Origin: Pontiellaceae bacterium B12219
GTDB lineage: Bacteria > Verrucomicrobiota > Kiritimatiellia > Kiritimatiellales > Pontiellaceae
Reading direction: 5' to 3'
DNA length: 36,927 nucleotides
Assembly (NCBI GenBank): GCA_029432795.1
Contig: JARNMJ010000044.1
Span: forward strand, 1 to 36,927
The stretch's first letter is position 1. Every line of letters begins with the position of its first letter. Below the pieces are notes generated by a model. It ran no database searches. It worked only from the letters and a program-made list of their open reading frames with translations, and had not been told where the DNA came from. Both the position numbers and the translations under genes were made by a program. Shown one piece after another: positions 3,104 to 35,798 of this stretch.

Positions 3104-3719
3104 ATGAAGTCTGTAACGGTGTTTTGTTTGGTGGGGTTAATCTGCGGGGCAGTCTCAGCGGTCCCTGTTTTTGAAGGAAAAGACGGTCTGGTTATCATCG
3201 AAGCTGAATCAACGGCTTCTTCCCGGGGCGACTGGGAGGAAAAGCAAACGATCGAAGGCTATACGGGAGATTGCCACTTCGAATTCACCGGGAACAAACC
3301 GGCAACCGGCCCGGCAAAAGATCCGTTGGAATTTCAGTTTACGGTGGATCAGGACGGCATTTACAGACTGCTGATCCGTTGTCACAAGCGTCTGGCTGGT
3401 GAGACCGGATAAATGCAATGACTGTTATGTCCGGTTGGATGGTGATTTTACAACGGGCGGGAATGCGCCGCAGCATATGCTGGAGACCGATACGAAACTG
3501 TATGGCGGAAGTGCAACGGGGTGGGGCTGGACAAGTAAGCTGGATCGGGACCACAAAAAATTCGAACCCCTGTATGCTCTGAAAGCCGGAGAAAAATATA
3601 CCCTGGTGGTGTCCGGTCGGTCACAACGCTTCAATATGGACCGCATTGTCTGGCAGCATGAAAGTGTTTCGGATGACGATGCCAAAGATCCGAAACAGCC
3701 GGAAAGTAAATCAAAATAG
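3104..3719 (+). pseudogene. Secreted carbohydrate-binding-like protein, frameshifted
   Basis: Two overlapping frames make one protein. The first (3104-3412) starts with a signal peptide, MKSVTVFCLVGLICGAVSA, followed by a beta-rich domain with the phrase LVIIEAESTAS. This is typical of CBM35/CBM6-like or related sugar-binding folds. The second frame carries the rest, from about DKCNDCYVRLDGDF to the stop at 3719, and ends with a charged Lys/Asp/Glu tail. Joining them needs a +1 (or -2) shift near 3398-3410, for instance one extra C in GAGACCGG. The joined protein would be about 204 residues, exported to the periplasm or outside. Whether this is a true mutation or an assembly error cannot be told here. 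A ribosome binding site (GGGAGAGCAGGT) precedes the start. No catalytic domain is present. The family assignment is tentative. Confidence 0.65.
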
Positions 3720-4274: not shown

Positions 4275-4440
4275 CATTTTCTCCTGTTGAAAGGGCGCAA
4301 GTTTAGTCGGCACGAGAGTGGGGTCAAACATCTATCTCACAGACTCGGTTTCTTTTTGAGTAAAGACTGGGAAAGGAGTTATGTATTTTATATATTTATT
4401 TTGGGTGTTTTATTTAATGGGACTTCGGGGGTGGAGCAGA

Positions 4441-7053
4441 ATGAGTTTGAAGTGGGTTGTGTTGTGGGGCGCGTTGGCATGTTCATGCTTTGCCGAAAAT
4501 TCGGTTGTGATTCAGGCGGGCGTACCGGAGAGCGCGGGGGATGAGGAGCGTGTGCGGCTCGGCATTCGTTACGAAAAGGGTGAACCGATATTTCGCTGGA
4601 ACTATCCGAAGCATCTGGAAGACGAATTTCTTGGCTGTGCAACAGATGAAGAGCGAGCAGTTTTGGGCTCTGTTGAGTTATTGCGGCAGGCGCGCGAGGG
4701 GGATCAATCGAGCGAGTACGAGCTGGGTTACCTTCAGTTTTATGGCATGGGAATGCCCGTCGATCTTGCGGAAGCTGAGCGTTGTTTTCGGTTAGGGTGG
4801 AAAATAAACCGTCCGATAGGTTCGATGCGATTGGCGAGAGCATTAATTGACGGACAGCGAGTCGAACGTGATCCCGGGAAAGCGGCAGACCTGGTGCTCG
4901 GCGGGCTGGAGCACGGTTTTAAAGAAATGATTTGGACCGCGAATCTGGTGGCCCGCTATTACGCAGAGAAAATGGAACCGTCGGATCCTCAGCAGGCCAT
5001 GGAAATTCTAACCGCTATTCTCGAACTGGATCCAAACGATGGATATGCATTGGTTTTGGCGATGAGCGTGAGTGAGGATCCGGCGTTTGAAGAGCGGGCG
5101 TGGGAAGCTGCGAATCGCGAACTGGAACTGTTGAAGGCGCGCACCGGAGAGGAAAAGGGCAGCTATCCCACATGCGCATATGAATTGGCGAGGGCATTGG
5201 TCTACGGTGATCCGAATGAAGTTGAAGTTGAACAAGCCCTGGAGTTGATTTTTCCCCTGTTGGAGGCGGGGTATGTGCAAGCAAATCCTCTTGCGAATCG
5301 TGCCGCGCGCTATTACGCCCGGGATTTGAATCCGCCTGATGAGCAGAAAGCCATGAGGATTCTGGATGCGGTCTTGGAGCTGAGTCCGGAGGATATGCGG
5401 ACGTTGATTTTGGCGGCCGGTGTGAGCGGGGACCCCGCATTTAAAGAGCGGGCGTGGAAGGGCGTTCAACTTGAACTGGAACGGGAAGGAGCAAACGCGA
5501 TAGCCGGAAAGAAGGTGTATCCAAGGTATGCCTATGCAATGGCATATCAGCTGATAGAGGATGGAAACCTTCAGGATATCCAACGGGCGGAGGAACTGGT
5601 CTTCTCCATGTTGGAGATGGATTATACGAGGGCGATGCCGCTTGCGCAGGGCATCGCGGAATTCTATGCCGAAAAGGCCGCTGCTCCTGATCCGCAGGAG
5701 GCTTTGCGGGTTTTAAATCGGGCTCTTGAGGTTGACCCGAATGCTGCTGATGTGTTGGTGGACTGCATACAGCTGAGTCAGAAGGCCGGGTTGCATGCGT
5801 TGGCGTGGGACTACGCCATGCGCGATTTGGCGCTGGCCCGCGAAAACGCACGTTCGAATAAAAAAGCCTATGCTCCGCAAGGTGCCAATTGGTTGGCATG
5901 GATGCTGATCCGGGGTGAGGATGAAGGATTTGATGCGGAAAAGATCAAGGCGCTTGTTCTTCCGTTGTTGGAGTTCGGGGGTGGAGATGCACTGCGGTCT
6001 GTGACTTCCGTTGCGCATCATCTTGCATGGAGGGAGGAACCACCTGATCCGGAGAAAGCAATGCAGATTTTAGAGGCGGTTGTTGCGGCCGACCCAGAGT
6101 ATGCCCGAGGATGGCGAATCGGGGCGGTTATATGCGAAGAGCAGGGGAATTATGACCGGGCATGGGAATGGGCATCGCGTGTGCTGGAAATTGAGGATGA
6201 TGAGGCCGATGGGGAGCGCCTTCGTGCTCAAATAGTCCGTGTACAGGTGGCTCAGGCAACGGGAAGAATTGACGATCTGGAACGGGCGGATCTTTTGGCG
6301 CCTTTTGTGTTGCTGACGGAGCTTATTCCGGATGTCTTTCTGGCGGGAGGAGGCATCGTGATTTTGCTGGGCTCGCTGATCGGATTGATTGCCATGGTTT
6401 TTGTGACGCGTCGCAGCGGGACTTCCGGACCGGGGATCTTCGTGGTGCTGTTTTGGATTGTTTTTCCTGCTATCGGCGCAGGAGTTTGGATTCAATTTCC
6501 GATGATTGGAATGATTGCAGAAGCGTGTCTGCTGCTGGCGCTTATTCTATCGCTCGCACCCGGGTTAAGGGTGGCCTATTTTCCGCTCCGGTCCATGCCG
6601 TCTGGCCGCACACTCGTGTCGGCCATTGGTGTGGTACTGGGCTGTTTCATTTTGATTGTTTTTGCTAATTTCGGATACGAAAAGCTGTATGTGTGGTTGA
6701 CGGGCGAATCATTGGGGGTTCAATGGGTTGCACTGCATATGAAGTGCGATAATGCTTATGAAGCCGCAGCCATGTTTTTCATGGCGGCACTTTGCGCGCC
6801 CGTGATTGAAGAGATTACTTTTCGTGGCTTTTTGTTAGACTGGTTTCGTCGGCGGATGGCTTGGATTTGGGCCATTTTATGTGTATCGCTCATCTTCGCC
6901 CTTATTCATGGATGGACTGCGGCTTTGCCCATTTTTTTTGTTGGGCTCACGTCGGGATGGCTTCGGTTTCATTTCAAAAACCTCTGGCCGTCGGTCTTAT
7001 TGCACATGCTGAATAATGGCATTGCCTTGATCGGGCTGTGGCTTATTCCGTAA
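4441..7053 (+). CDS. Exported Sel1/TPR-repeat protein fused to a CPBP membrane protease
   Basis: An 870-residue two-part protein. A signal peptide (MSLKWVVLWGALACSCFA) leads into about 600 residues of helical repeats. First comes a Sel1-like unit (YELGYLQFYGMGM, AEAERCFRLG), then about four longer repeats, each with a core like PDPQ-AMEIL-AVLELDP. After residue about 620 come several membrane segments and a C-terminal CPBP (CAAX protease/bacteriocin-processing, Abi) domain. Its putative catalytic set is intact: EEITFRG (E790, E791, R795), FALIHGW (H823) and HMLNN (H855, N858-859). The start at 4441 gives a clean signal peptide and has GGTGGAG at good spacing; an in-frame ATG at 4381 sits only two bases from AAAGGAG. 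The inferred topology puts the repeats in the periplasm, perhaps as a substrate-recognition arm. The gene is divergent from the adenosyltransferase. Function unknown. Confidence 0.85.
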   Translation: MSLKWVVLWGALACSCFAENSVVIQAGVPESAGDEERVRLGIRYEKGEPIFRWNYPKHLEDEFLGCATDEERAVLGSVELLRQAREGDQSSEYELGYLQFYGMGMPVDLAEAERCFRLGWKINRPIGSMRLARALIDGQRVERDPGKAADLVLGGLEHGFKEMIWTANLVARYYAEKMEPSDPQQAMEILTAILELDPNDGYALVLAMSVSEDPAFEERAWEAANRELELLKARTGEEKGSYPTCAYELARALVYGDPNEVEVEQALELIFPLLEAGYVQANPLANRAARYYARDLNPPDEQKAMRILDAVLELSPEDMRTLILAAGVSGDPAFKERAWKGVQLELEREGANAIAGKKVYPRYAYAMAYQLIEDGNLQDIQRAEELVFSMLEMDYTRAMPLAQGIAEFYAEKAAAPDPQEALRVLNRALEVDPNAADVLVDCIQLSQKAGLHALAWDYAMRDLALARENARSNKKAYAPQGANWLAWMLIRGEDEGFDAEKIKALVLPLLEFGGGDALRSVTSVAHHLAWREEPPDPEKAMQILEAVVAADPEYARGWRIGAVICEEQGNYDRAWEWASRVLEIEDDEADGERLRAQIVRVQVAQATGRIDDLERADLLAPFVLLTELIPDVFLAGGGIVILLGSLIGLIAMVFVTRRSGTSGPGIFVVLFWIVFPAIGAGVWIQFPMIGMIAEACLLLALILSLAPGLRVAYFPLRSMPSGRTLVSAIGVVLGCFILIVFANFGYEKLYVWLTGESLGVQWVALHMKCDNAYEAAAMFFMAALCAPVIEEITFRGFLLDWFRRRMAWIWAILCVSLIFALIHGWTAALPIFFVGLTSGWLRFHFKNLWPSVLLHMLNNGIALIGLWLIP

Positions 7054-11829: not shown

Positions 11830-13017
11830 CTAGAATGAAACCATCAGGTCGAGCATCAGCGTGTTGAATTGCTGATCCATCTTGAGCGTGCGGACGGGAG
11901 TCCGTTTGGAATAGATGAAGGTCGCGCCGCAGGCCAGGTTCTTGGCAATATTATATTTCGCTTTCAGACTGCTGCCTTTCACGCCGGTTCCGCCATCAGC
12001 GAAGTCGGAATCGGTAAAGTAGGCCGGAGCGGCGTAGAGTCCGAGATCCCGGTAATTGTAGGAGGCCTGCCATTTTCCTTTTTTCGCATCGCCGAATTTA
12101 ATCCCGATGCAGTAGCCGGTGTTTTCATTGCCGGTGGCGGTGTTGTTAACGTAGTTGCCATAGAACTTAAAGGGAATGGGGCCGACGTCCTTCACGGACA
12201 GCGTGGCGAAAGCTTCGGCAATGCTGTAGTCGACTGCATAGTTTCCGGGAAGTACCGGATCGGTGAACTGCTGGGAATTATCGTATCCGTAGAAGGAGCC
12301 GCCGATGGTCAGTTTGGTTTTTCCGATGGGCTGGATTACGCCCAATTGTCCCTGTCCGAGGTTCATATCGGTGGTGAGCGATTCTTCCTGCACCCGGAAA
12401 TAGCCGAGGCTGCCGAAAATGCCGGTGTCGCCGGCTTTGCCGTCATAGGCATAGGCAATGCCTTCGGGGTTAACATCGCTGTCCCAGATCAGGTTGGAGG
12501 CATCAAACCAGGTCTGTTTCATTTTTCCGAACGTTGCCGTGCCGTATTTGGCATCAACCGGGGCGATTGCAAAGTAGGCGAGCGAGATCGACAGATCGAA
12601 GCCGTCGAAATTGTCTCCCAGCGTTACGTTGCCGCTGTTGGCTTTATTTCCGGTGCGGATGCCGACCCCTGCGGTGGTGAAATCGTTCACATCGGCATAG
12701 GCTCCGAGCCGAACGCGCAGGCGTTGTATATTTTTACTGGTCGAAAGATCCGCGCCGAATTCATCTTCGGCTTCAACATATTGAAAGCGATAGCGGACAT
12801 CGCCCTTCATACGGACTTTGGAGGTCCAGCTGCTCAGTGAGGTTTTCCGGTTTTCTTCCAGAGCCTGTAGGCGTTTGAGAATATCTTCATTGGTGGTATT
12901 GGAAAGATCTTCCGGTGTTACAGTGGAAACGGCTGTCGGGGTATCCGATGTTTCGCCCATTGCGGCGCTGGATAGTGCAAGGCCTGCGATAATACTGTAT
13001 GCAATTTGTTTTTTCAT
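11830..13017 (-). CDS. Outer-membrane porin, probably phosphate-linked
   Basis: A 395-residue exported beta-barrel protein. A signal peptide (MKKQIAYSIIAGLALSSAAMG) is followed by a short coiled-coil-like stretch (TNEDILKRLQALEENRK), typical of trimeric or peptidoglycan-linked porins. Alternating beta strands then run to a C-terminal ...LMLDLMVSF ending in Phe, the usual barrel signature. ATG 13017 was chosen because GGAGG is six bases upstream; the ATG at 13023 abuts it. The gene is the most downstream of the phosphate island and has its own promoter with 11-bp GTTAG/ATTAG repeats. A role in phosphate or polyphosphate entry is inferred from context only. A terminator follows. Confidence 0.8.
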   Translation of the reverse strand: MKKQIAYSIIAGLALSSAAMGETSDTPTAVSTVTPEDLSNTTNEDILKRLQALEENRKTSLSSWTSKVRMKGDVRYRFQYVEAEDEFGADLSTSKNIQRLRVRLGAYADVNDFTTAGVGIRTGNKANSGNVTLGDNFDGFDLSISLAYFAIAPVDAKYGTATFGKMKQTWFDASNLIWDSDVNPEGIAYAYDGKAGDTGIFGSLGYFRVQEESLTTDMNLGQGQLGVIQPIGKTKLTIGGSFYGYDNSQQFTDPVLPGNYAVDYSIAEAFATLSVKDVGPIPFKFYGNYVNNTATGNENTGYCIGIKFGDAKKGKWQASYNYRDLGLYAAPAYFTDSDFADGGTGVKGSSLKAKYNIAKNLACGATFIYSKRTPVRTLKMDQQFNTLMLDLMVSF

Positions 13018-13112
13018 TTTCATCCTCCGTTTGCATTTTGTTAGGCGAACGGTTCTCTTCCTGCTGATCACCCTTTTTTTAGTCCAATTCAGGATTTCTG
13101 TCCTGTTTTATG

Positions 13113-13291: not shown

Positions 13292-14968
13292 TTATTTTTC
13301 GCCGGCGATCACTTCGGCAATATTCAGCGCATGGTCTTTCATGCGACGGTAATTGTTGAGCATATCGGTGAAAACCAGGCTGGTGAGCGGGGTGGTTTTG
13401 TTATCGGAGAGTCGCTGGAGATGCTGCCGGCGAAATTTTTTCATTAAACGGGTGACGATTTCGCTATCCGTTTGAGCCCGTCCGATGACATTTTTATTGT
13501 CGTTCAGTTCAGCTTTATTAATCATTTCAATATAGCTGGCCACATTGGAATGCAGCTCAATGAGTTCGATGCGGCCTTCATTTGAGAGGACGAGCTGGTT
13601 GGCCCGGAGTTTCACGTGGCCTTTCAGGACATTCACTAAATAGTCGCTGAGGCTTTCATATTCGTCCGCCATGCGCATTTCGCGCCGTGCTTCTTCCATC
13701 ACATCATGTGGAATCTGCCCGGTCATCATTTCGCTGAGAAAGACGACAATCTCTTTCTGCACGTTATCCAGAATGGTTTCATAGTGAAATATTTTATGTT
13801 CCAGCTCGTCGAGCTGCTCATCGCTCGCAAGCACTTCGCCGAGCCAGTCACACATTTTTTCAACACATTCGGCCATGAATCTAATTTGTTTTTTCGACTG
13901 CACAATGCCCAGCGCCGGCGTGTCGAGCATGCGGATGTCGAAGTAGGACAGACGGTTTATTTCGTCGACCTTTTTATCGGGGACCAGTTTTTCAACCAGT
14001 CGGGCGAGCGGCTGAATCAGCGGCAGGAAAATGATGGTGTTGATCAGATTGAATCCCGTATGAACGAGGGCAATCTTTGCCGTGATATCATCCCAGTTCT
14101 CCTGTGTTTTGGCAAAGAACCCTTCGAGGTGGACAAAGATGGATTCGATTCCCTGAACATAGGAAAAAAAGAAGGGAATCAGCCAGAGGGTGCCGACCAC
14201 ATTAAAAATGATGTGGGCGTAAGCCGCGCGTTTTGCATTGGTGGAGCTGCCGATGGAGGCGAGAAAGGCGGTGATGGTGGTGCCGATGTTCAGGCCGAGA
14301 ACGAGTGCGGCCGCGGTATCGAATCCGATGATGCCGCCCTGGGCGAGTACAATGGTTACACCGATAGTGGCTGAGGATGACTGTACAATCATGGTGGCCA
14401 CGCAGCCAATGAAGGCACATTTCAGGACGCCCCATAACGAAGCGGCATCCATAACTGAAAAGAGTTGCGTGAGGTATTCCTTCACTTCCGGCGTCTTGAA
14501 TGCACCGCCCATGGTCTGCAGACCGAAAAAGACCATGCCGACTCCCAGCAGGGTCATTGCCAGATAGCGTACACGGTCTTTTTTAGCAAAAAGGAAGAAA
14601 AAAGCAGCGACTCCAAGGACCGGAAGACCGAACTTTCCAATTTTAAGTGCAATGATCCAGGCGGTTACGGTGGTTCCGATATTGGCTCCGAGGATGACGC
14701 CGATCGCCTGAATAAGGGTCATAAATCCGCTGTTCACAAAGCCGATGACCATCACGGTGGTTACTGAGCTGGATTGAACGAGGGCGGTAATCAGTGTGCC
14801 GATGGTGCAGGCGGCAAACCGGTTGTCGGTTACGGCGCTGATCATTTTGCGCAGTTTGTTGCCGGCCACGGCCTGCATGCCTTCGGACATATATTTCATG
14901 CCCAGTAAAAAAATGCCCAGTCCCCCGACCACCTTGAAGAGAATGTCCTGAATTGCCTGCCACTCCAT
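13292..14968 (-). CDS. Na/Pi cotransporter with PhoU-like tail (copy 1)
   Basis: A 558-residue inner-membrane protein of the NptA/YjbB family (SLC34-like), which couples sodium to phosphate movement. The duplicated core carries two QSSS motifs (about 65-68 and 196-199), each in a re-entrant segment, plus GANIGTT and GLNIGTT loops. From about residue 340 a soluble helical PhoU-like domain follows and ends in RRMKDHALNIAEVIAGEK. The family mediates uptake in some hosts and efflux in others. It is a paralogue of the adjacent gene 15126-16826. ATG 14968 has GGGGAA upstream. A CTAAC pair 22 bases apart sits 34 bases upstream and suggests PhoB control. Confidence 0.92.
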   Translation of the reverse strand: MEWQAIQDILFKVVGGLGIFLLGMKYMSEGMQAVAGNKLRKMISAVTDNRFAACTIGTLITALVQSSSVTTVMVIGFVNSGFMTLIQAIGVILGANIGTTVTAWIIALKIGKFGLPVLGVAAFFFLFAKKDRVRYLAMTLLGVGMVFFGLQTMGGAFKTPEVKEYLTQLFSVMDAASLWGVLKCAFIGCVATMIVQSSSATIGVTIVLAQGGIIGFDTAAALVLGLNIGTTITAFLASIGSSTNAKRAAYAHIIFNVVGTLWLIPFFFSYVQGIESIFVHLEGFFAKTQENWDDITAKIALVHTGFNLINTIIFLPLIQPLARLVEKLVPDKKVDEINRLSYFDIRMLDTPALGIVQSKKQIRFMAECVEKMCDWLGEVLASDEQLDELEHKIFHYETILDNVQKEIVVFLSEMMTGQIPHDVMEEARREMRMADEYESLSDYLVNVLKGHVKLRANQLVLSNEGRIELIELHSNVASYIEMINKAELNDNKNVIGRAQTDSEIVTRLMKKFRRQHLQRLSDNKTTPLTSLVFTDMLNNYRRMKDHALNIAEVIAGEK

Positions 14969-15001
14969 AGTGCTTCCCCATAAAAAATAGTGTGAGGGAA
15001 C

Positions 15002-15028
15002 CTAACAAAATACACATTGTTTACTAAC
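15002..15028 (-). promoter_or_regulatory. Pho-box-like repeats upstream of Na/Pi copy 1
   Basis: CTAAC at 15002-15006 and again at 15024-15028, exactly 22 bases (two helical turns) apart. On the coding strand the sites read GTTAG. TATTTT, a possible -10, follows about 12 bases after the last site. Confidence 0.5.
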
Positions 15029-15061
15029 CAATAATGCTGTTGTTTATCGCCGGCATGTCTC

Positions 15062-15102
15062 GTTTAAAAGAAAAAGGCCCTTTTGTTACCAAAAGAACCT
15101 TT
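15062..15102 (-). terminator. Terminator of Na/Pi copy 2
   Basis: On the minus strand 15102-15090 pairs with 15085-15073: a 13-bp stem with two G-U pairs closed by a GTAA tetraloop, followed by TTTTTCTTTT. It separates the two Na/Pi genes, so each is its own transcription unit. Confidence 0.85.
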
Positions 15103-15125
15103 CATTGGGGGAATCAGATTTATCC

Positions 15126-16826
15126 CTATTTTTCGCCGGCGACAACCTCGGCAATATTCAGCGCATGGTCTTTCATGCGGCGGTAATAATTGAGGATATC
15201 GGTGAAGGCCAGGCTGAAGAAGGGGGATACTTCTTCATTCTGGAGGCGTTCCAGATGCTGGCGGCGGAACTCTTTCATCAGTGCTCCGATGGCCGCTCCT
15301 TCCGTTGTTGCCCAGGATAGCAGATCGGTCTTTTCGCCTTTTTTCACGTAGCCGTTCACTTTGTCGATGTATATGGCGACTCGCGTATGAAGCGCCAGCA
15401 GTTTTTCCCGCGCGGGGCCATCAATCGGGAGATTCATTTCCTCCAGTTTTTTGATGCCTTTGAGTACGTTGGCGGCATAGTCGCTCAGCGATTCATACTC
15501 GTCGGCGAGACGCATCTGAACGTGGGCCTTTTTCGTGATGTCATGAGGGACCTGCCCTGAAACCAGACTGCTGAGGAAGATGAAGATTTCTTTCTGGACG
15601 TTGTCGAGGATGTCTTCCCGGTGGAAAATTTTTCGCTGCAATTCAGCATCCTGCTTATCACTTTCGAGACAGATTTTAAGTTTATCCATCATGATGCTGA
15701 CACTCTCGCCCATGAAATCGATCTGCTGCTGCGATTGGATAATGCTGAGGGAGGGCGTATTCAGCATACGGACATCGAGATAGGTCAGGTGTCCGATTTC
15801 CTTGGTATTTTTTTCCGGACAGATTTTGGTAACAAATCTTGCCAGCAGGCCGATGAACGGCAGGAAAATGAGCACGTTGGCGACGTTGAACGTGGTATGG
15901 GTCAGCGCGATGCCGGAGGTGATGATCTGCCCGAATTCTTTTTCATCCATGTCTTCGATGCCGATGTCCAGCGGATTGAATCCGGTTTTGGCAGCAATCA
16001 GGGACGAGAGGCCTTTGATGGCAACCGGGAACAGGGCAATGAACCAGATCGTCCCGATAACGTTGAAGAAAAAGTGGGCATAGGCCGCCCGTTTGGCATT
16101 GGTGGTTGTGCCGATGGAAGCGAGCAGGGCGGTGACGGTGGTTCCGATATTTTCTCCCATAACCAGTGCGGCGGCTGTCTGAAATTCAATTACACCGGTG
16201 GATGCCAGGCCGATGGTGATGCCCAGTGTAGCCGAGGAGGATTGCACAATCATGGTCAAGATCATGCCGACGAGGGCGCATTTTATGAGGCCGAGATAAC
16301 TCGTGGCCTGAAATGCGTGAAACCAGGCGCTGAATTCTTCCATGGAGCGCAACGGCTTAAATCCGTTTTTCATCAGTTCAAGGCCGAAGAAGACCATGCC
16401 GATACCCATAATCGTCATGCCGATATAGCGCACGCGGTCATTTTTGGAGAACAGGAAGAAAAAGGACGCAATTCCAAGGATTGGAAGGCCCCATTTTCCA
16501 ATATTCAATACCAGAATCCAGCCGGTGATGGTGGTGCCGATATTGGCACCGAGAATGACGCCGATGGCCTGCATCAGATTCATAATGGCCGAGTTGACGA
16601 AGCCGACGACCATCACGGTGGTTACTGAACTGGACTGTACCAGACAGGTAACCAGAATGCCCATAAGCACTCCCATGACCCGGTTGTTGGTGGCCACGCT
16701 GATGATCTTGCGCAGTCGTTCGCCGGAGACAGCCTGCAGGCCTTCCGACATATATTTCATGCCGAGCAGGAAAATCCCAAGCCCACCTGCAACGGTCAGC
16801 GCAATTTGCAGAAAACTAACTTCCAT
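15126..16826 (-). CDS. Na/Pi cotransporter with PhoU-like tail (copy 2)
   Basis: A 566-residue paralogue of the neighbouring Na/Pi gene with the same plan: QSSS at about 64-67 and again in the second half, GANIGTT and GENIGTT loops, then a PhoU-like helical domain ending RRMKDHALNIAEVVAGEK. Identity to copy 1 is clear along the whole length and highest at the very 3' end. GGGAG precedes the ATG. The promoter region, between this gene and phoR, carries CTAAC sites 22 bases apart. A terminator follows. Two copies could differ in affinity, or one could import and the other export; the sequence does not say which. Confidence 0.92.
   Translation of the reverse strand: MEVSFLQIALTVAGGLGIFLLGMKYMSEGLQAVSGERLRKIISVATNNRVMGVLMGILVTCLVQSSSVTTVMVVGFVNSAIMNLMQAIGVILGANIGTTITGWILVLNIGKWGLPILGIASFFFLFSKNDRVRYIGMTIMGIGMVFFGLELMKNGFKPLRSMEEFSAWFHAFQATSYLGLIKCALVGMILTMIVQSSSATLGITIGLASTGVIEFQTAAALVMGENIGTTVTALLASIGTTTNAKRAAYAHFFFNVIGTIWFIALFPVAIKGLSSLIAAKTGFNPLDIGIEDMDEKEFGQIITSGIALTHTTFNVANVLIFLPFIGLLARFVTKICPEKNTKEIGHLTYLDVRMLNTPSLSIIQSQQQIDFMGESVSIMMDKLKICLESDKQDAELQRKIFHREDILDNVQKEIFIFLSSLVSGQVPHDITKKAHVQMRLADEYESLSDYAANVLKGIKKLEEMNLPIDGPAREKLLALHTRVAIYIDKVNGYVKKGEKTDLLSWATTEGAAIGALMKEFRRQHLERLQNEEVSPFFSLAFTDILNYYRRMKDHALNIAEVVAGEK
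16472..16486. repeat. TTCCAA-NNN-TTGGAA palindrome inside Na/Pi copy 2
   Basis: TTCCAAGGATTGGAA, exact arms, in the codons for PILG. The paralogue has PVLG with a broken palindrome at the matching place, so the palindrome is not needed for the protein. Confidence 0.7.
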
Positions 16827-16866
16827 TATAATTTCTCCCGGTAGGATTACGTAATTTCGCGAGAAC

Positions 16867-16893
16867 CTAACAGAAAGCCTGTGCTTTGCTAAC
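16867..16893 (-). promoter_or_regulatory. Pho-box-like repeats upstream of Na/Pi copy 2
   Basis: CTAAC at 16867-16871 and 16889-16893, exactly 22 bases apart, the same layout as in front of copy 1. TACGTAAT lies about 13 bases closer to the gene as a candidate -10. A third GTTAG (16913-16917) overlaps the phoR stop codon. Confidence 0.5.
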
Positions 16894-16913
16894 CATTAAA
16901 TGTTCGGGATTTG

Positions 16914-18704
16914 TTAGGCACCGGGATTGGCGCTAGCGGTCAGCGGAAGGGTGATGATGAATGTGCTGCCGATTCCGACGCGGCTTTCAACGCGGATGGA
17001 ACCTTCATGCGCTGAAATAATATGTTTTACAATGGAAAGTCCGAGGCCTGTTCCGCCCAGTTTTCGGCTGCGGGCGGTATCGACTCGGTAAAAGCGTTCA
17101 AACAGGCGGTCCTGGTGTTTGTGCTCAATGCCAAAACCTTCATCCTTCACATAAATCACAATCTGATGGTGCTGTTTTTCTGCCAGAATAAGAATTTTTT
17201 TGTCGTTTTCGGAATATTTAACGGCGTTGATGATCAGATTGACCAGTGCCTGTTCAATGAGCGGGACATTAATTTCGAATTCCAGATCTTTCGGGCAGAT
17301 TGAGCTGATTTGTATGTTCTTTTTGGCGGCCTGCAGCTGGCAGAGATAAATCGCCGTTTCAATTACCGGGGCCAGTGCAACTTTTTCAGAAAGAACACGG
17401 CCCTTTTTCTGCTCCAGTCGGGAAAGGATCAGCAGATCATCAATAATCGAATTCAGCCGCCCGGATTGTTGATTGATAATTTCCAGAAACCGGAGAATAT
17501 CGGGTTCATGATTCCACTCATCGGAAAGCAGGGTTTCCACAAATCCTTTAATCGAGGTGATCGGCGTTTTGAGTTCGTGCGATACGTTGGCGACAAAATC
17601 AGAGCGAATGGTTTCCAGATGACGCAGATGGGTTATATCGCGCAGCACAATCAGCGCTCCGATGGATTGTTCTTCCGCATTCCAAAGCACGGTTCCTCTG
17701 GCCTGAATCTGTTTTTCGTCATCACTGCGCAGGCACATATCGCGCTGAAGAGGCTGTTGAGAACCGAGCACCGACTTGATGAATTCCTGCAAATTTGCAA
17801 AACGAACGACCTGCTGAACCAGTTGCGATTTGGCATCGGTATATTCAACTCCGAGAATTTCACCCGCCACGCGGTTCATGTGGATGACCCGTTCGCGTTT
17901 ATCAATCGCGAGCACGCCTTCATCCAAAGAGGTGAGCACCGCATTCTGTTCGTTGCGTTGTTCGCTCAGGGAGGAAAGGGTTTGATTGAGCTGCTCCGAC
18001 ATGCTGTTCAGGGCTTCGGCCAGCTGGTCGAATTCCAGCGTCTGCTGGGCCGGGATGCGGTGGTGGAAGTCGCCTTCGGCAAACTGGCGAGCTGCAGAGC
18101 TCATGCCCAGCAGCGGAGTGGTGATTCGGCGAACCACATACACACACACGCCCATGGCGAGCAGTCCGGTCAGGATCGAAACAATAACGACCTGACGGGT
18201 CATTTTCCCGAGTTCGGAATTAATATCCGTCATCGGCAATGCGGCACGGACCGCACAGAGCGTTTCCTGTCGGTCGTTCTTCAGCGGAACCGCAATATAC
18301 ATCTGTTCCTTTCGGACCGTTCGACTGAAGCGGATGTCCATTCCGGATGAACCGTGAAGCGCCTGTTTAATTTCGGGGCGATTATCGTGCAATTCAATCG
18401 TATCGGGCTCTTTATTCGAGTCGCCGACCACTTTTCCGTCGGGAAGAATGACCGTAAAGCGGGTATTTGCTGTGGCCCCGATTTTTTTACAAAGCGCATC
18501 TATTTCGGAAAATTTTTCATCCGTAACCAGCGGGGCAACCTGTTCTGACAGAAGCAGGGCTCGGATGCTGATGTCTTTTTCCAGGGCCTGGAAATAGAGG
18601 TTGGACATCGAGTGGAATGTATAAAATGCCATCACCAGAATGGCTACGGCTGTCAGCAGCCAATACGAAGGAAGCAATAGCCAGAACAGGTGCTTTTTCT
18701 TCAT
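16914..18704 (-). CDS. phoR: Phosphate-type sensor histidine kinase PhoR
   Basis: A 596-residue membrane kinase, partner of the response regulator just upstream. TM1 is at about 7-29, a periplasmic sensor domain at 30-170, TM2 at about 171-192, then HAMP, a PAS domain (about 250-360), HisKA with the phospho-acceptor H376 in NVSHELKTPITS, and a HATPase_c domain (NLIINAVKY, DEGFGIE, GGTGLGLSIV). The order HAMP-PAS-HisKA is typical of PhoR. ATG 18704 has GGAG eight bases upstream; a longer frame to 18911 has a non-family leader. It follows phoB by 118 bases. The phosphate role is inferred from the neighbouring Na/Pi genes. Confidence 0.88.
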   Translation of the reverse strand: MKKKHLFWLLLPSYWLLTAVAILVMAFYTFHSMSNLYFQALEKDISIRALLLSEQVAPLVTDEKFSEIDALCKKIGATANTRFTVILPDGKVVGDSNKEPDTIELHDNRPEIKQALHGSSGMDIRFSRTVRKEQMYIAVPLKNDRQETLCAVRAALPMTDINSELGKMTRQVVIVSILTGLLAMGVCVYVVRRITTPLLGMSSAARQFAEGDFHHRIPAQQTLEFDQLAEALNSMSEQLNQTLSSLSEQRNEQNAVLTSLDEGVLAIDKRERVIHMNRVAGEILGVEYTDAKSQLVQQVVRFANLQEFIKSVLGSQQPLQRDMCLRSDDEKQIQARGTVLWNAEEQSIGALIVLRDITHLRHLETIRSDFVANVSHELKTPITSIKGFVETLLSDEWNHEPDILRFLEIINQQSGRLNSIIDDLLILSRLEQKKGRVLSEKVALAPVIETAIYLCQLQAAKKNIQISSICPKDLEFEINVPLIEQALVNLIINAVKYSENDKKILILAEKQHHQIVIYVKDEGFGIEHKHQDRLFERFYRVDTARSRKLGGTGLGLSIVKHIISAHEGSIRVESRVGIGSTFIITLPLTASANPGA

Positions 18705-18822
18705 TTTGAATGCTCCGAATGCACGGATTGCCGGATGACTGGAGGGTTGGAAACAGAGCTCATGCGGGCGGGGTTTCCCTTTCGGAAATTCATTAATCCC
18801 ATAATCCGGCGATCCATTGCGC

Positions 18823-19518
18823 TTACTCTTCCTCTTTAAAGCGATAGCCGATGCCGCGCACCGTTTCAATAAACTGGCCGGCGTCGCCCAGTTTCTTGCG
18901 TAATCCGACAATCTGAACGTCCACCGAGCGGTCGGTTACCGGATAGTCCTCGCCATGAACGGCATCCACAATCTGGTACCGCGTGAAAACACGTCCCGGT
19001 TGCTGGGTCAACAGGTGCAGCACTTTAAATTCCGTGAAGGTCAGGGAAATGTTGCTGCCGTCGACTTCCACCTTGTGCCGGCCGACATCGATCGAAATAT
19101 TATGCACACTGATCAGATCCTCATTTGCAAGCGGCTGGGAGGAAACAATCCGCCGCAAAGCGGCTTTCACCCGAGCCAGCAATACACGCGGGCTGAATGG
19201 TTTCGTAATATAATCATCAGCACCCAGCTCCAGACCGGTCACAATATCTGCTTCTTCGCAGAGTGCGGTCAGCATAATAATCGGGATTGACGCGGTTTTG
19301 GGATCGCCCTTCAGTTTTTTACAGACCTCAAGCCCGTCTGCACCCGGCAGCATAATATCCAGCAGAATGAGGTCCGGCAGATATTCACCGGCAAGTGTGA
19401 TGGCCTCTTCTCCCGAATCGACCACCTTCACACGGTATTTTTTACGCTCCAGATTAAACTGCAACAGTTCCTGAATCGGCGCTTCATCCTCAACCACTAA
19501 AATCTTTATCTTTTCCAT
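18823..19518 (-). CDS. phoB: OmpR-family response regulator, PhoB-like
   Basis: A 231-residue regulator with an N-terminal receiver (acidic pair E10/D11, phospho-acceptor D54 in LLDIMLPG, conserved Lys in YITKPF) and a C-terminal winged helix (TRYQIVDAVHGEDYPVTDRSVDVQIVGLRKKLG) that binds DNA. The receiver and wing sequences match the PhoB branch. ATG 19518 has GGAAG upstream and gives a receiver start of normal length. It is transcribed before phoR and probably with it. An upstream CTAAC/GTTAG pair suggests autoregulation. It is the likely reader of the CTAAC repeats in the phosphate island. Confidence 0.9.
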   Translation of the reverse strand: MEKIKILVVEDEAPIQELLQFNLERKKYRVKVVDSGEEAITLAGEYLPDLILLDIMLPGADGLEVCKKLKGDPKTASIPIIMLTALCEEADIVTGLELGADDYITKPFSPRVLLARVKAALRRIVSSQPLANEDLISVHNISIDVGRHKVEVDGSNISLTFTEFKVLHLLTQQPGRVFTRYQIVDAVHGEDYPVTDRSVDVQIVGLRKKLGDAGQFIETVRGIGYRFKEEE

Positions 19519-19546
19519 GCGTTCAATCTTCCGCATTTACCCAACG

Positions 19547-32438: not shown

Positions 32439-32518
32439 TGGCATTGCTGATAGTGAAGAGGATATTTGACAGCGTTGGATGTCCCCCATAGATTCTATTG
32501 TTTTCAAGGAACCAGTAT

Positions 32519-33556
32519 ATGAGTGAATTTGCACAGATCCCCATGCAGTTTATCGGCCCGCTTAAGGTGTCCGGCGCAACCATCGAAGGCGACTACGAGG
32601 TGCCGCTGGCGACCTACGAAACACCGCTTTGGCCGTCGGTCAACCGCGGCGCCCGCGTTTCCATGAACTGCGAAGGCGGAATCAACTGCACGGTGATCGA
32701 CGACCGCATGACGCGCTCGGTCCTTTTTGAAGCGCCCGATGCGACGGAAGCCTTCCAGGCTCTGGAAAAAATAAAGGCCGATTTTCCAATCCTTGGAAAG
32801 GTGGTGGAGGGGACCAGCCGTTTTGCGAAGCTGATCAATATCAATTCCCAGATTGCCGCCAACCTGCTGTTCATTCGGTTTGAATTCACGACGGGCGATG
32901 CCTCCGGCCACAATATGTGCACACAGGCCGCCGAAGCATTGATGAATCACATTCTTTCAATTCACCCGAACCTGAAATACGGCTCGATTTCCGGCAACTA
33001 CTGCTCCGACAAAAAAGCCACGGCGGTCAACGGCATCCTCGGCCGCGGAAAATACGTCGTTGCGGAACTTACAATTCCTGAAAAAATCTGCCGGCGTTAT
33101 CTGAAAACCACGCCGGAAAAAGTTGTGCAGCTCAACATCCGTAAAAATCTGATCGGCACCTTGCTGGCCGGCGGAGCGCGCAGTGCCAACGCGCACTTTG
33201 CCAATATGCTGCTCGGTTTCTACCTCGCCACCGGGCAGGACGCCGCCAACATTGTGGAAGGCTCGCAGGGATTCACCATTTGCGAGGAGCGGGAAGGGAA
33301 CCTTTATTTTTCCGTCACCCTGCCGAATCTGATTATGGGCACGGTCGGCAACGGGAAGGGCCTCGATTTTGTGCTGGAAAATATGCAGCGCATGGGCCTG
33401 ACCGAAAACCGCGAACCCGGCGAAAACGCCAAACGCCTCGCCTGCCTCTGCGCCGCGCAGGTTCTCTGCGGCGAACTTTCGCTGCTCGCCGCCCAGACCA
33501 ATCCCGGCGAGCTGATGGATGCCCACCGCCGCATTGAACGCGGGAAGAAGATCTGA
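32519..33556 (+). CDS. Compact hydroxymethylglutaryl-CoA reductase
   Basis: A 345-residue HMG-CoA reductase, which makes mevalonate from HMG-CoA with NAD(P)H. The N-terminal phrase GPLKVSG...YEVPLATYETPLWPSVNRG holds the catalytic Glu (E34). Then come FTTGDASGHNM (altered from the usual TGDAMGMNM), SGNYCSDKKATAVNGILGRGK with the catalytic Lys (DKK 164-166), LATGQD with the Asp (D241), IMGTVGNGKGL, and a C-terminal His (H336 in MDAH). All four catalytic residues are accounted for, but two signatures deviate. AAGGA precedes ATG 32519. It has no membrane anchor. No other mevalonate gene is near. It lies 25 bases upstream of the cotransporter, perhaps in one operon. Confidence 0.88.
   Translation: MSEFAQIPMQFIGPLKVSGATIEGDYEVPLATYETPLWPSVNRGARVSMNCEGGINCTVIDDRMTRSVLFEAPDATEAFQALEKIKADFPILGKVVEGTSRFAKLININSQIAANLLFIRFEFTTGDASGHNMCTQAAEALMNHILSIHPNLKYGSISGNYCSDKKATAVNGILGRGKYVVAELTIPEKICRRYLKTTPEKVVQLNIRKNLIGTLLAGGARSANAHFANMLLGFYLATGQDAANIVEGSQGFTICEEREGNLYFSVTLPNLIMGTVGNGKGLDFVLENMQRMGLTENREPGENAKRLACLCAAQVLCGELSLLAAQTNPGELMDAHRRIERGKKI
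32753..32767. repeat. TTCCAG-NNN-CTGGAA palindrome inside the HMG-CoA reductase gene
   Basis: TTCCAGGCTCTGGAA, in the codons for FQALE. It is followed 31 bases on (centre to centre) by an exact TTCCAA copy. Confidence 0.55.
32784..32798. repeat. TTCCAA-NNN-TTGGAA palindrome inside the HMG-CoA reductase gene
   Basis: TTCCAATCCTTGGAA, in the codons for FPILGK. Same PxLG frame as the copies in ffh and Na/Pi copy 2. Confidence 0.7.
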
Positions 33557-33581
33557 TGCCAGACCAGCTATAGGATATCGT

Positions 33582-35798
33582 ATGAAAAAAGAAAACCCGT
33601 CTGCCCGATCTTCCGCTCCGACTAAGTTCGGCACATTCGGCGGGGTTTTTACTCCGAGTCTGCTGACGATTCTCGGCGTGATCATGTTTCTGCGCTATGC
33701 CACCGTTGTAGGTTACGCGGGGCTATGGGGCGCATTGGCCATTCTTGCGGCGGCCAAGCTCATTACGGTACTCACCGGGCTTTCGCTCTCGTCGGTTTCA
33801 ACCAATATGCGGGTCAAGGGGGGCGGGGCATATTTCCTGATCAGCCGCAGCCTCGGTGCGGAGTTCGGCGGCGTGATTGCCATCTTTTTCTATGTGGCGC
33901 AGGCCGTGGCGGTCACGCTGTATGTGATCGGTTTTTCGGAAGCCCTCTTTTCCGCATTTCCCGATTTGGGTCTGTCGATGCGGGCGGTGGGCTCGCTGAC
34001 CAATCTGGTCGTTTTTATCTGTGTCTACATCGGAGCCGGCTGGACGATCCGGCTGCAATACGGAATTCTGGCGGTGCTGCTGCTTTCGATCGTTTCCTTT
34101 GCGGTCGGGGCCTGGATGAACTTTTCGCCTGAAATGCTGCAGGCCAACCTCACGCCGCAATGGACCGGGGAATTTTCCTTCTTCACGGTATTTGCGCTGT
34201 TCTTCCCGGCCGTCACGGGCATCATGGCCGGGGTCAATATGTCCGGCGATCTGAAGAATCCGGCCCGCTCCATTCCGACCGGTACCTTTGCGTCGATTGG
34301 CGTTTCGGCGCTGATCTATGCCGGTGTCGCGGTGCTGCTCGCCGCCAGCTCTTCCCGCTCGGAACTGGTGGGCGATGGTTTTGTGATGAAGGACAAAGCG
34401 TGGTCCGGTGCTTTGATCTATGCGGGAGTTATCAGCGCCACCCTGTCGTCGGCGCTGGGCAGCATGATGGGAGCACCGCGTATTCTGCAGGCCTTTGCGC
34501 GGGATAATATTTTCAAAAAACTCAAGTGGTTCGCCCATGGCAGCGGGGCTTCCGGTGAGCCGCGGCGCGCTGTGATTTTGACCTTTCTGATTGCGCAGAT
34601 CGGCATTCTGGCGGGCGATCTCAATACGATCGCGCCGATCATCACCATGTTTTTCCTGCTGACCTACGGCACGGTCAATCTGGCATGTTTTTATGAAGGC
34701 ATTTCCCATAATCCGAGTTTCCGGCCGACTTTCCGCTTTAATCACTGGTCCGCCGCGCTGCTGGGGGCGATCGGCTGTCTGTGCATTATGTTTCTGATCA
34801 ATGCGGTTTGGGCCGGCGTGGCCATTGTGTTGGCGGCAGGGCTTTACATGCTGATTAAGCGCGCAAAAATCATCGTGCAGTGGGGCGATCTTGACAGCGG
34901 TCTGGCCTACCAGCGCGCGCGAAAAGCGCTGCTCAAACTGGAGCAGGAACGCTATCATCCGAAAAACTGGCGGCCCTCTATTCTGGCGCTGTGCGGCGGG
35001 GCGTGGAACCGTATCCACCTCGCTGAATATGCCTGCTGGCTTTCTGCGAATCTGGGCATGGTTTCGCTGGGACAGATTATCGAAGGCGATCTCGATAATT
35101 ATTTTGAGCGCCGTCGGATGGCTGAAGAACGCCTGCGCAAGTTTATCAAGGCGGAAGAGCTTCCGGCTTTTCCCGTGGTGGTGGTTGAAGACGATATCAA
35201 TGCGGCGGTCAAAGCCCTGCTGCAGTGCCATGGGGTCGGTGGCCTGCGCCCCAATACCCTGTTGCTCGGATGGAGTGAGGATCCGGAGAATGCCCCGTTT
35301 TTCACAGAAGCCCTGCGGATTGCCCGCAAGATGCAGCGCAGTATCATTATTGTTTCCTGCGAGGAAGAGCGTGAGAAGGATTATGTGCCTGCCGGGGCGA
35401 TCGATGTCTGGTGGGACGATCCCCAAGAGGGCTCGTTGATGCTGATGCTCGCGTATCTCATCAAGAAAAATCCGGAATGGCGCGACCGGCCGCTGCGCCT
35501 GCTGCGACCGATCGGTTTGCAGGACGATGTTGAAAGCGCCACAAAAAAAATGAAGCTCATCCTTTCCGTTGCGCGTATTGAGGCGGAGATTGTGATTCTT
35601 CCAACAGCTAATCCTTTGGCGGCCGTGCGGGAAGTCGCGGATGGTACGGGATTGCTGTTTGCCGGGTTCGATCCCGCCGAGGAGGAGTCCGACGGAGCGC
35701 TGCCCGCGTCATTGTGCAAGACCATTGATCTCCCTGGCGACGTCATCATGGTTTACAGTGCCGGCGATGTGGCACGGATTTCTTTCCTGAGTTTTTAA
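33582..35798 (+). CDS. SLC12-like cation-chloride cotransporter (APC superfamily)
   Basis: A 738-residue membrane protein. The N-terminal GTFGGVFTPSLLTILGVIMF then LRYATVVGYAG is the hallmark of the Na-K-Cl/K-Cl cotransporter family. Twelve hydrophobic segments reach residue about 430, including AVTGIMAGVNMSGDLKNPARS and GSMMGAPRILQAFARD. A cytosolic domain of about 300 residues follows (ILALCGGAWNRIHLAEYACWLSA in part, VVVVEDDINAAVKALL, IVVSCEEERE-like), as in eukaryotic SLC12. It would cotransport Na+ and/or K+ with Cl-, perhaps in salt balance. ATG 33582 has AGGAT upstream. It follows the HMG-CoA reductase gene closely. Confidence 0.87.
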   Translation: MKKENPSARSSAPTKFGTFGGVFTPSLLTILGVIMFLRYATVVGYAGLWGALAILAAAKLITVLTGLSLSSVSTNMRVKGGGAYFLISRSLGAEFGGVIAIFFYVAQAVAVTLYVIGFSEALFSAFPDLGLSMRAVGSLTNLVVFICVYIGAGWTIRLQYGILAVLLLSIVSFAVGAWMNFSPEMLQANLTPQWTGEFSFFTVFALFFPAVTGIMAGVNMSGDLKNPARSIPTGTFASIGVSALIYAGVAVLLAASSSRSELVGDGFVMKDKAWSGALIYAGVISATLSSALGSMMGAPRILQAFARDNIFKKLKWFAHGSGASGEPRRAVILTFLIAQIGILAGDLNTIAPIITMFFLLTYGTVNLACFYEGISHNPSFRPTFRFNHWSAALLGAIGCLCIMFLINAVWAGVAIVLAAGLYMLIKRAKIIVQWGDLDSGLAYQRARKALLKLEQERYHPKNWRPSILALCGGAWNRIHLAEYACWLSANLGMVSLGQIIEGDLDNYFERRRMAEERLRKFIKAEELPAFPVVVVEDDINAAVKALLQCHGVGGLRPNTLLLGWSEDPENAPFFTEALRIARKMQRSIIIVSCEEEREKDYVPAGAIDVWWDDPQEGSLMLMLAYLIKKNPEWRDRPLRLLRPIGLQDDVESATKKMKLILSVARIEAEIVILPTANPLAAVREVADGTGLLFAGFDPAEEESDGALPASLCKTIDLPGDVIMVYSAGDVARISFLSF

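Follow-up and report, generated by a model that had tools for sequence, protein, structure and literature searches.

Pontiellaceae bacterium B12219 encodes an 870-aa protein in which a predicted signal peptide, a long arm of helical repeats, and a C-terminal CPBP membrane domain are joined in a single chain. As far as we found, an exported TPR/Sel1 arm on a CPBP core is a rare combination, undescribed in open-access papers. We give roughly an even chance to the reading that this is an active intramembrane glutamic endopeptidase, with the exported arm capturing an envelope protein and keeping it at the membrane to be cut. The gene lies in the window, by which we mean the whole 36,927-nucleotide stretch of contig JARNMJ010000044.1 that was analyzed. 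Its features are:

4441..7053, + strand: whole gene, 870 aa (open reading frame and translation; full-length homologues at L043:2527-4080 and L044:5974-7515)
4381, + strand: alternative in-frame ATG start (890 aa, adding 20 residues)
4441..4494, + strand: putative signal peptide, residues 1-18 (MSLKWVVLWGALACSCFA; hydropathy peak at residues 6-24, cleavage site by inspection only)
4546..4920, + strand: conserved N-terminal beta segment and Sel1-like region, residues 36-160 (38-44% identity to L043 and L044)
4939..5292, + strand: TPR-type block 1, residues 167-284 (internal alignment; DNA repeat with block 2)
5293..5643, + strand: TPR-type block 2, residues 285-401 (56/118 identical to block 1)
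5644..6003, + strand: TPR-type block 3, residues 402-521 (39/109 identical to block 1; TPR_14)
6004..6303, + strand: TPR-type block 4 and linker, residues 522-621 (TPR_19; counterpart in the short homologues)
6349..6666, + strand: TM helices 1-4, residues 637-742 (hydropathy; 33-42% identical among three members)
6766..7044, + strand: CPBP core, TM helices 5-8, residues 776-868 (PF02517; AF2; profile match to 4cad)
6808..6825, + strand: motif EExxxR, residues E790, E791, and R795
6907..6909, + strand: predicted catalytic His 823 (FALIH)
7003..7017, + strand: motif HxxxN, residues H855 and N859

The gene forms part of the longest open frame of the window (897 codons). In 50 first-order Markov simulations of the window the longest frame reached 405 codons, so we consider the frame open and real. 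The choice of start codon is uncertain. The ATG at 4441 has GGAG 4-5 nt upstream and yields a tidy signal peptide, and the ATG at 4381 has AAAGGAG 2 nt upstream; an N-terminal hydrophobic segment is predicted with either. Promoter and terminator signals for the gene did not exceed those of shuffled sequences. It is flanked by genes for a cobalamin adenosyltransferase and a DUF1456 protein, both on the opposite strand.

From the N-terminus, the protein comprises the signal peptide, a short beta segment, a weak Sel1-like unit, four TPR-type blocks of ~118 aa, and a membrane domain of eight predicted helices that ends in a CPBP (Rce1-like) core. The original prediction of a signal peptide, a long repeat arm, and a C-terminal CPBP domain in one polypeptide is borne out by the open reading frame, by Pfam, and by homologues. 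It had further described the arm as a Sel1/TPR solenoid. TPR-type repeats are indeed present, but Sel1 character is limited to the first ~100 arm residues, the remainder being the four blocks. The Pfam Sel1 match in the window protein is weak (residues 91-118, E 0.024, 15.6 bits versus a cut-off of 30.7); at the corresponding place in both short homologues, Sel1 matches with E 3e-4. Several Pfam TPR models match across the arm, among them TPR_19 (E 2.8e-11) and TPR_14 (E 3.3e-9), both above cut-off.

By internal alignment, residues 167 to about 621 resolve into four homologous blocks of ~118 residues (z 39.7 for blocks 1 and 2; 23/61 identical residues for blocks 1 and 4). The DNA of blocks 1 and 2 is 72% identical over 79 nt at a spacing of 354 nt, which points to a fairly recent duplication. 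The window protein has four blocks, and L043 and L044 have one each. The single block of L043 is closest to block 4 (22/59 identical) and that of L044 is about equally like blocks 3 and 4 (26/76 identical to block 4). Because each homologue carries one such block, we read the longer arm as an expansion, and the window protein is probably an elaboration of a shorter ancestral plan.

Structure prediction had been proposed as a check. The AF2 model of the whole protein (pLDDT 72.8) has strands at residues 37-43 and 51-56 in the N-terminal beta segment, followed by alternating helices or helix pairs over residues 69-607. Block 4 locally matches a consensus TPR (7obi_A, Z 13.2, rmsd 1.3 over 67 residues; VIA-align). 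With its repeat units and helix-pair solenoid, the arm belongs with the TPR/Sel1 solenoids. The check returned helix-pair repeats and also a confident CPBP core, mostly >90 in pLDDT (residues 791-820, about 93; residues 831-860, 92-95), but TM1-4 are of low confidence and pTM is 0.47, so the model is no guide to how the arm is arranged relative to the membrane domain. The model of L043 alone was poor (pLDDT 50.6), and a fold search with it returned nothing below 1e-3.

The C-terminal CPBP assignment stands (PF02517, residues 776-860, E 1.1e-19, 70.9 bits versus a curated cut-off of 22.4), although the membrane part is larger than the ~90-aa CPBP core: seven hydropathy peaks and a weaker TM7 make up a unit of eight predicted helices. 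The catalytic set was predicted to be intact, and E790/E791, R795, H823, H855, and N859 are all invariant over 34 aligned CPBPs, as are F794, G796, and F797. Score and motifs both place the protein among the CPBP/Rce1-like endopeptidases (PF02517; MmRce1, PDB 4cad), with which it shares the EExxxR, FxxxH, and HxxxN motifs and eight predicted TM helices. The 34-CPBP profile, which includes the window protein, matches MmRce1 with E 4.7e-7; a structural match of the membrane domain to 4cad was absent from the Foldseek and VIA-align lists, which TPR chains filled. Unlike the window protein, MmRce1 (271 aa in 4cad) has no exported repeat arm.

Topology was assigned by eye from hydropathy and the positive-inside rule. 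The arm probably lies outside the cytoplasm, with eight TM helices and both termini outside. We place the arm and the C-terminus there because a signal peptide stands in front and positive charges fall in predicted cytoplasmic loops (TRR after TM1, R/K after TM3, and FRGFLLDWFRRR after TM5). The same loop pattern recurs in L043, L044, and L135. MmRce1, the only Rce1 structure named in one review, has eight helices with both termini lumenal; its catalytic cavity is open on the cytosolic side and to the lipid, with a side entrance flanked by TM2 and TM4 (PMC12067869). The predicted topology agrees with it. The exported placement of the arm that had been proposed is supported by the signal peptide, by the positive-inside charges of the loops in L135 and in the three closest members, and by the agreement with MmRce1.

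Two further metagenome-assembled genomes encode full-length homologues with fewer repeats, L043 (518 aa; JADLBR010000323, 'Verrucomicrobiia bacterium' SJ186) and L044 (514 aa; VGWF01000096, 'Lentisphaerae bacterium', also seen as G095). The two share 41% identity and, by region, are 30-54% identical to the window protein: 38 and 44% in the N-terminal region, 31 and 30% in the linker, 33 and 38% in TM1-4, and 44 and 54% in the core. Their N-termini also resemble its signal peptide region. Since arm, TM1-4, and core are all conserved between these lineages, the arm has been kept together with the enzyme. In a tree of 111 CPBP cores the three proteins group together (99/92), apart from both the permease-fused type and L028, a class-wide CPBP carried by the same genome as the window gene.

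Two more genes share the overall plan. L135:1250-2677 (- strand) encodes 476 aa with a signal peptide, five Sel1 repeats (PF08238, E 4e-44), and a CPBP domain, and L158:220-2082 (+ strand) encodes 620 aa with a signal peptide, a Sel1 array (PF08238, E 2e-47), and a CPBP domain. They align over most of their length at 29% identity. Unlike the window family they have canonical Sel1 arrays, and their TM1-4 have no detectable similarity to it, being no closer than those of background CPBPs. With p-AU 0.33, a single origin of all five intact genes is neither established nor rejected, and their TM1-4 are too divergent to tell a shared origin from independent ones. L135 and L158 show that the predicted exported-arm-CPBP architecture recurs, from one origin or several. 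The full catalytic residue set is kept in all five. It had been suggested that no described system has this architecture; none was found in the open-access literature, but at least four other intact genes have it in common with the window gene.

The arm-CPBP family is very sparse, with three carriers among 334 genomes of the class. At E 1e-20, the membrane-domain profile A4 found the window gene, G095, and G074, which are among the profile's own rows, and one ordinary-length CPBP; in 388 genomes from elsewhere in the phylum it returned three ordinary-length CPBPs (G534). Within the genus (28 genomes), an arm query returned nothing beyond the window genome and a plain Sel1 protein in G005. When 84,980 species were scanned for two short peptide patterns, at least two intact members and one remnant emerged, a lower bound given that both patterns are strict. 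Viral contigs yielded no instance of the architecture. In the remnant (L068:5993-6140, JAKQKQ010000261), which immediately follows a sulfatase gene, the fragments PVVEEITFRGFLVDWLRRRFSWGWAIAI and SILLHGLNNGVVITLLWLDKT lie in two frames. Only the surroundings of the EExxxR and HxxxN motifs are kept and the remaining gene is gone, reflecting either a decayed copy or an assembly fault.

Several other candidates were set aside. Weak arm-only matches (G005, G125, G166, and others) proved to be, or resemble, plain Sel1 proteins. The long CPBP frames in sister genomes G027, G001, G016, and G014 are permease-CPBP fusions beside an ABC ATPase gene. Such fusions (NF041647) resemble the window protein as long CPBP proteins in the same genus (L021-L024), but their N-terminal part is a permease and an ATPase gene adjoins; the window protein scores 61.6 bits against a cut-off of 435 and has no ABC-2 domain. 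Elsewhere in the class, the long CPBP frames L139, L141, and L143 bear no additional Pfam domain and resemble over-extended open frames. Sel1 repeats occur on exported polymorphic toxins (PMC3482391), but we saw no toxin or immunity gene nearby. As separate observations, a CPBP core ends a 1177-codon open frame in a Planctomycetia genome (L057:41-3571), where ~1070 preceding residues have no other Pfam match, and in two class genomes CPBP is joined to a C-terminal Kdo/WaaP-like kinase domain (PF06293; L142:1530-3230 and L146:1828-3555). To our knowledge, no such kinase fusion has been reported.

One described parallel is the Bacillus subtilis rhomboid YqgP/GluP, in which an intramembrane protease and an exported TPR domain occupy one chain (PMC7231995). 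YqgP is, however, a serine protease of another fold with a C-terminal TPR domain of three repeats, whereas the arm here is N-terminal and of ~600 residues; the likeness is analogy, not homology, and Pfam finds no rhomboid match. In the LbcA-CtpA and NlpI-Prc pairs a periplasmic TPR protein also partners a protease (PMC6050968), but as separate subunits, with a soluble protease and an outer-membrane lipoprotein partner. Myxosortase MrtX and its kin are bacterial CPBPs that act on surface proteins (PMC11980579) but have no arm. The NCBIfam myxosortase models score the window protein at 18.8-47.7 bits against cut-offs of 75-195 (Mrt_core, 25.3 versus 100; MrtJ, 44.2 versus 75; MrtC, 18.8 versus 195).

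If the arm acts as an adaptor in cis, the signal peptide would send ~600 residues across the inner membrane, and the eight helices that follow would set the Glu/His/His/Asn site within the membrane and leave both termini outside. The arm would then capture an envelope protein, which could be a membrane- or lipid-anchored substrate itself or a partner bringing one, and keep it close to the protease's lateral gate; the protease would cut near the substrate's membrane anchor. We infer catalysis from motif conservation, and topology and export from hydropathy and charge; substrate recruitment by the arm is plausible by analogy with the YqgP TPR domain, LbcA-CtpA, and NlpI-Prc. Protein or peptide ligands are considered likely for the extracellular TPR domain of YqgP (PMC7231995), and variation in arm length by repeat gain is as expected of a binding surface. 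MrtX shows a bacterial CPBP to be capable of cleaving the membrane anchor of surface proteins, and the lipid-bearing part of MYXO-CTERM has been modeled as entering it between TM2 and TM4 (PMC11980579). Geometry is the main doubt about recruitment: judged by MmRce1, the cavity would open on the face opposite the arm, so a recruited substrate would have to span or insert into the membrane.

The natural fusion to a putative binding arm offers a handle for finding partners. If the arm recruits, the protein would be the cis counterpart of adaptor-protease pairs known in trans, and differences in repeat number would amount to a natural experiment in specificity. More speculatively, and in our view improbably, these genes could represent an undescribed intramembrane protease class of Verrucomicrobiota, Kiritimatiellota, and Lentisphaerota, with variable-length exported Sel1/TPR arms on a CPBP core, substrate choice evolving by repeat gain and loss, and action on secreted polysaccharide-degrading enzymes such as sulfatases.

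Gene neighborhoods bear on an explanation that we consider quite unlikely, a sorting or processing protease for a few secreted enzymes encoded next to it (sulfatases, glycosidases), with myxosortase-like action on membrane anchors as in MrtX (PMC11980579). In L043, L044, and L068 the gene is immediately preceded by a sulfatase gene on the same strand (gaps of 77, 11, and about 9 nt), that of L044 being fused to a cellulase-like domain, and an upstream URO-D family gene, 75% identical in L043 and L044, marks shared synteny of the two. However, no sulfatase adjoins the window gene, nor were any found among the scanned neighbors of L135 and L158. The neighboring sulfatases are only 25% identical, not orthologous, and by their ORF sequences end in hydrophilic residues without a C-terminal helix. 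The window genome has 92 sulfatase matches (G000), so in such genomes these neighbors may be chance, and the myxosortase models fall far below cut-off. The sulfatase link is suggestive for part of the family only and may reflect shared ancestry or sulfatase-rich genomes.

Another reading, which we consider unlikely, is that the protein is instead a regulator or scaffold: the exported arm would sense or bind envelope components, serving as a switch, and the CPBP would signal or cleave one regulatory protein. TPR solenoids serve generally as binding surfaces, the N-terminal extramembrane domain of YqgP controls that protease's activity (PMC7231995), and LbcA activates CtpA (PMC11021448), but no obvious regulator or signaling gene lies directly beside the members examined. 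Sequence alone separates this from recruitment in neither direction. A non-proteolytic role, as a chaperone or acyl-transfer partner with a scaffold arm, would also count against the adaptor-protease reading. We regard it as very unlikely: CPBP proteins without protease function exist (PMC7387801), and relatives such as LnsB and SpdC appear to be of this kind, but those two are without the catalytic residues, all of which are kept in the five intact arm-CPBP genes.

Elsewhere in the window, 3104-3719 (+) contains two overlapping frames, of which the first matches Golvesin_C weakly (E 0.0076); a frameshift may have split one small secreted protein. At 13292-19536 (-), two Na/Pi cotransporter genes in tandem, with PhoU domains, adjoin a histidine kinase and response regulator; together with a putative porin at 11830-13071 they look like a phosphate locus. 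At 32498-35798 (+), an HMG-CoA reductase gene is followed by a gene for an amino-acid-permease/SLC12-type transporter, with a 38-base overlap.
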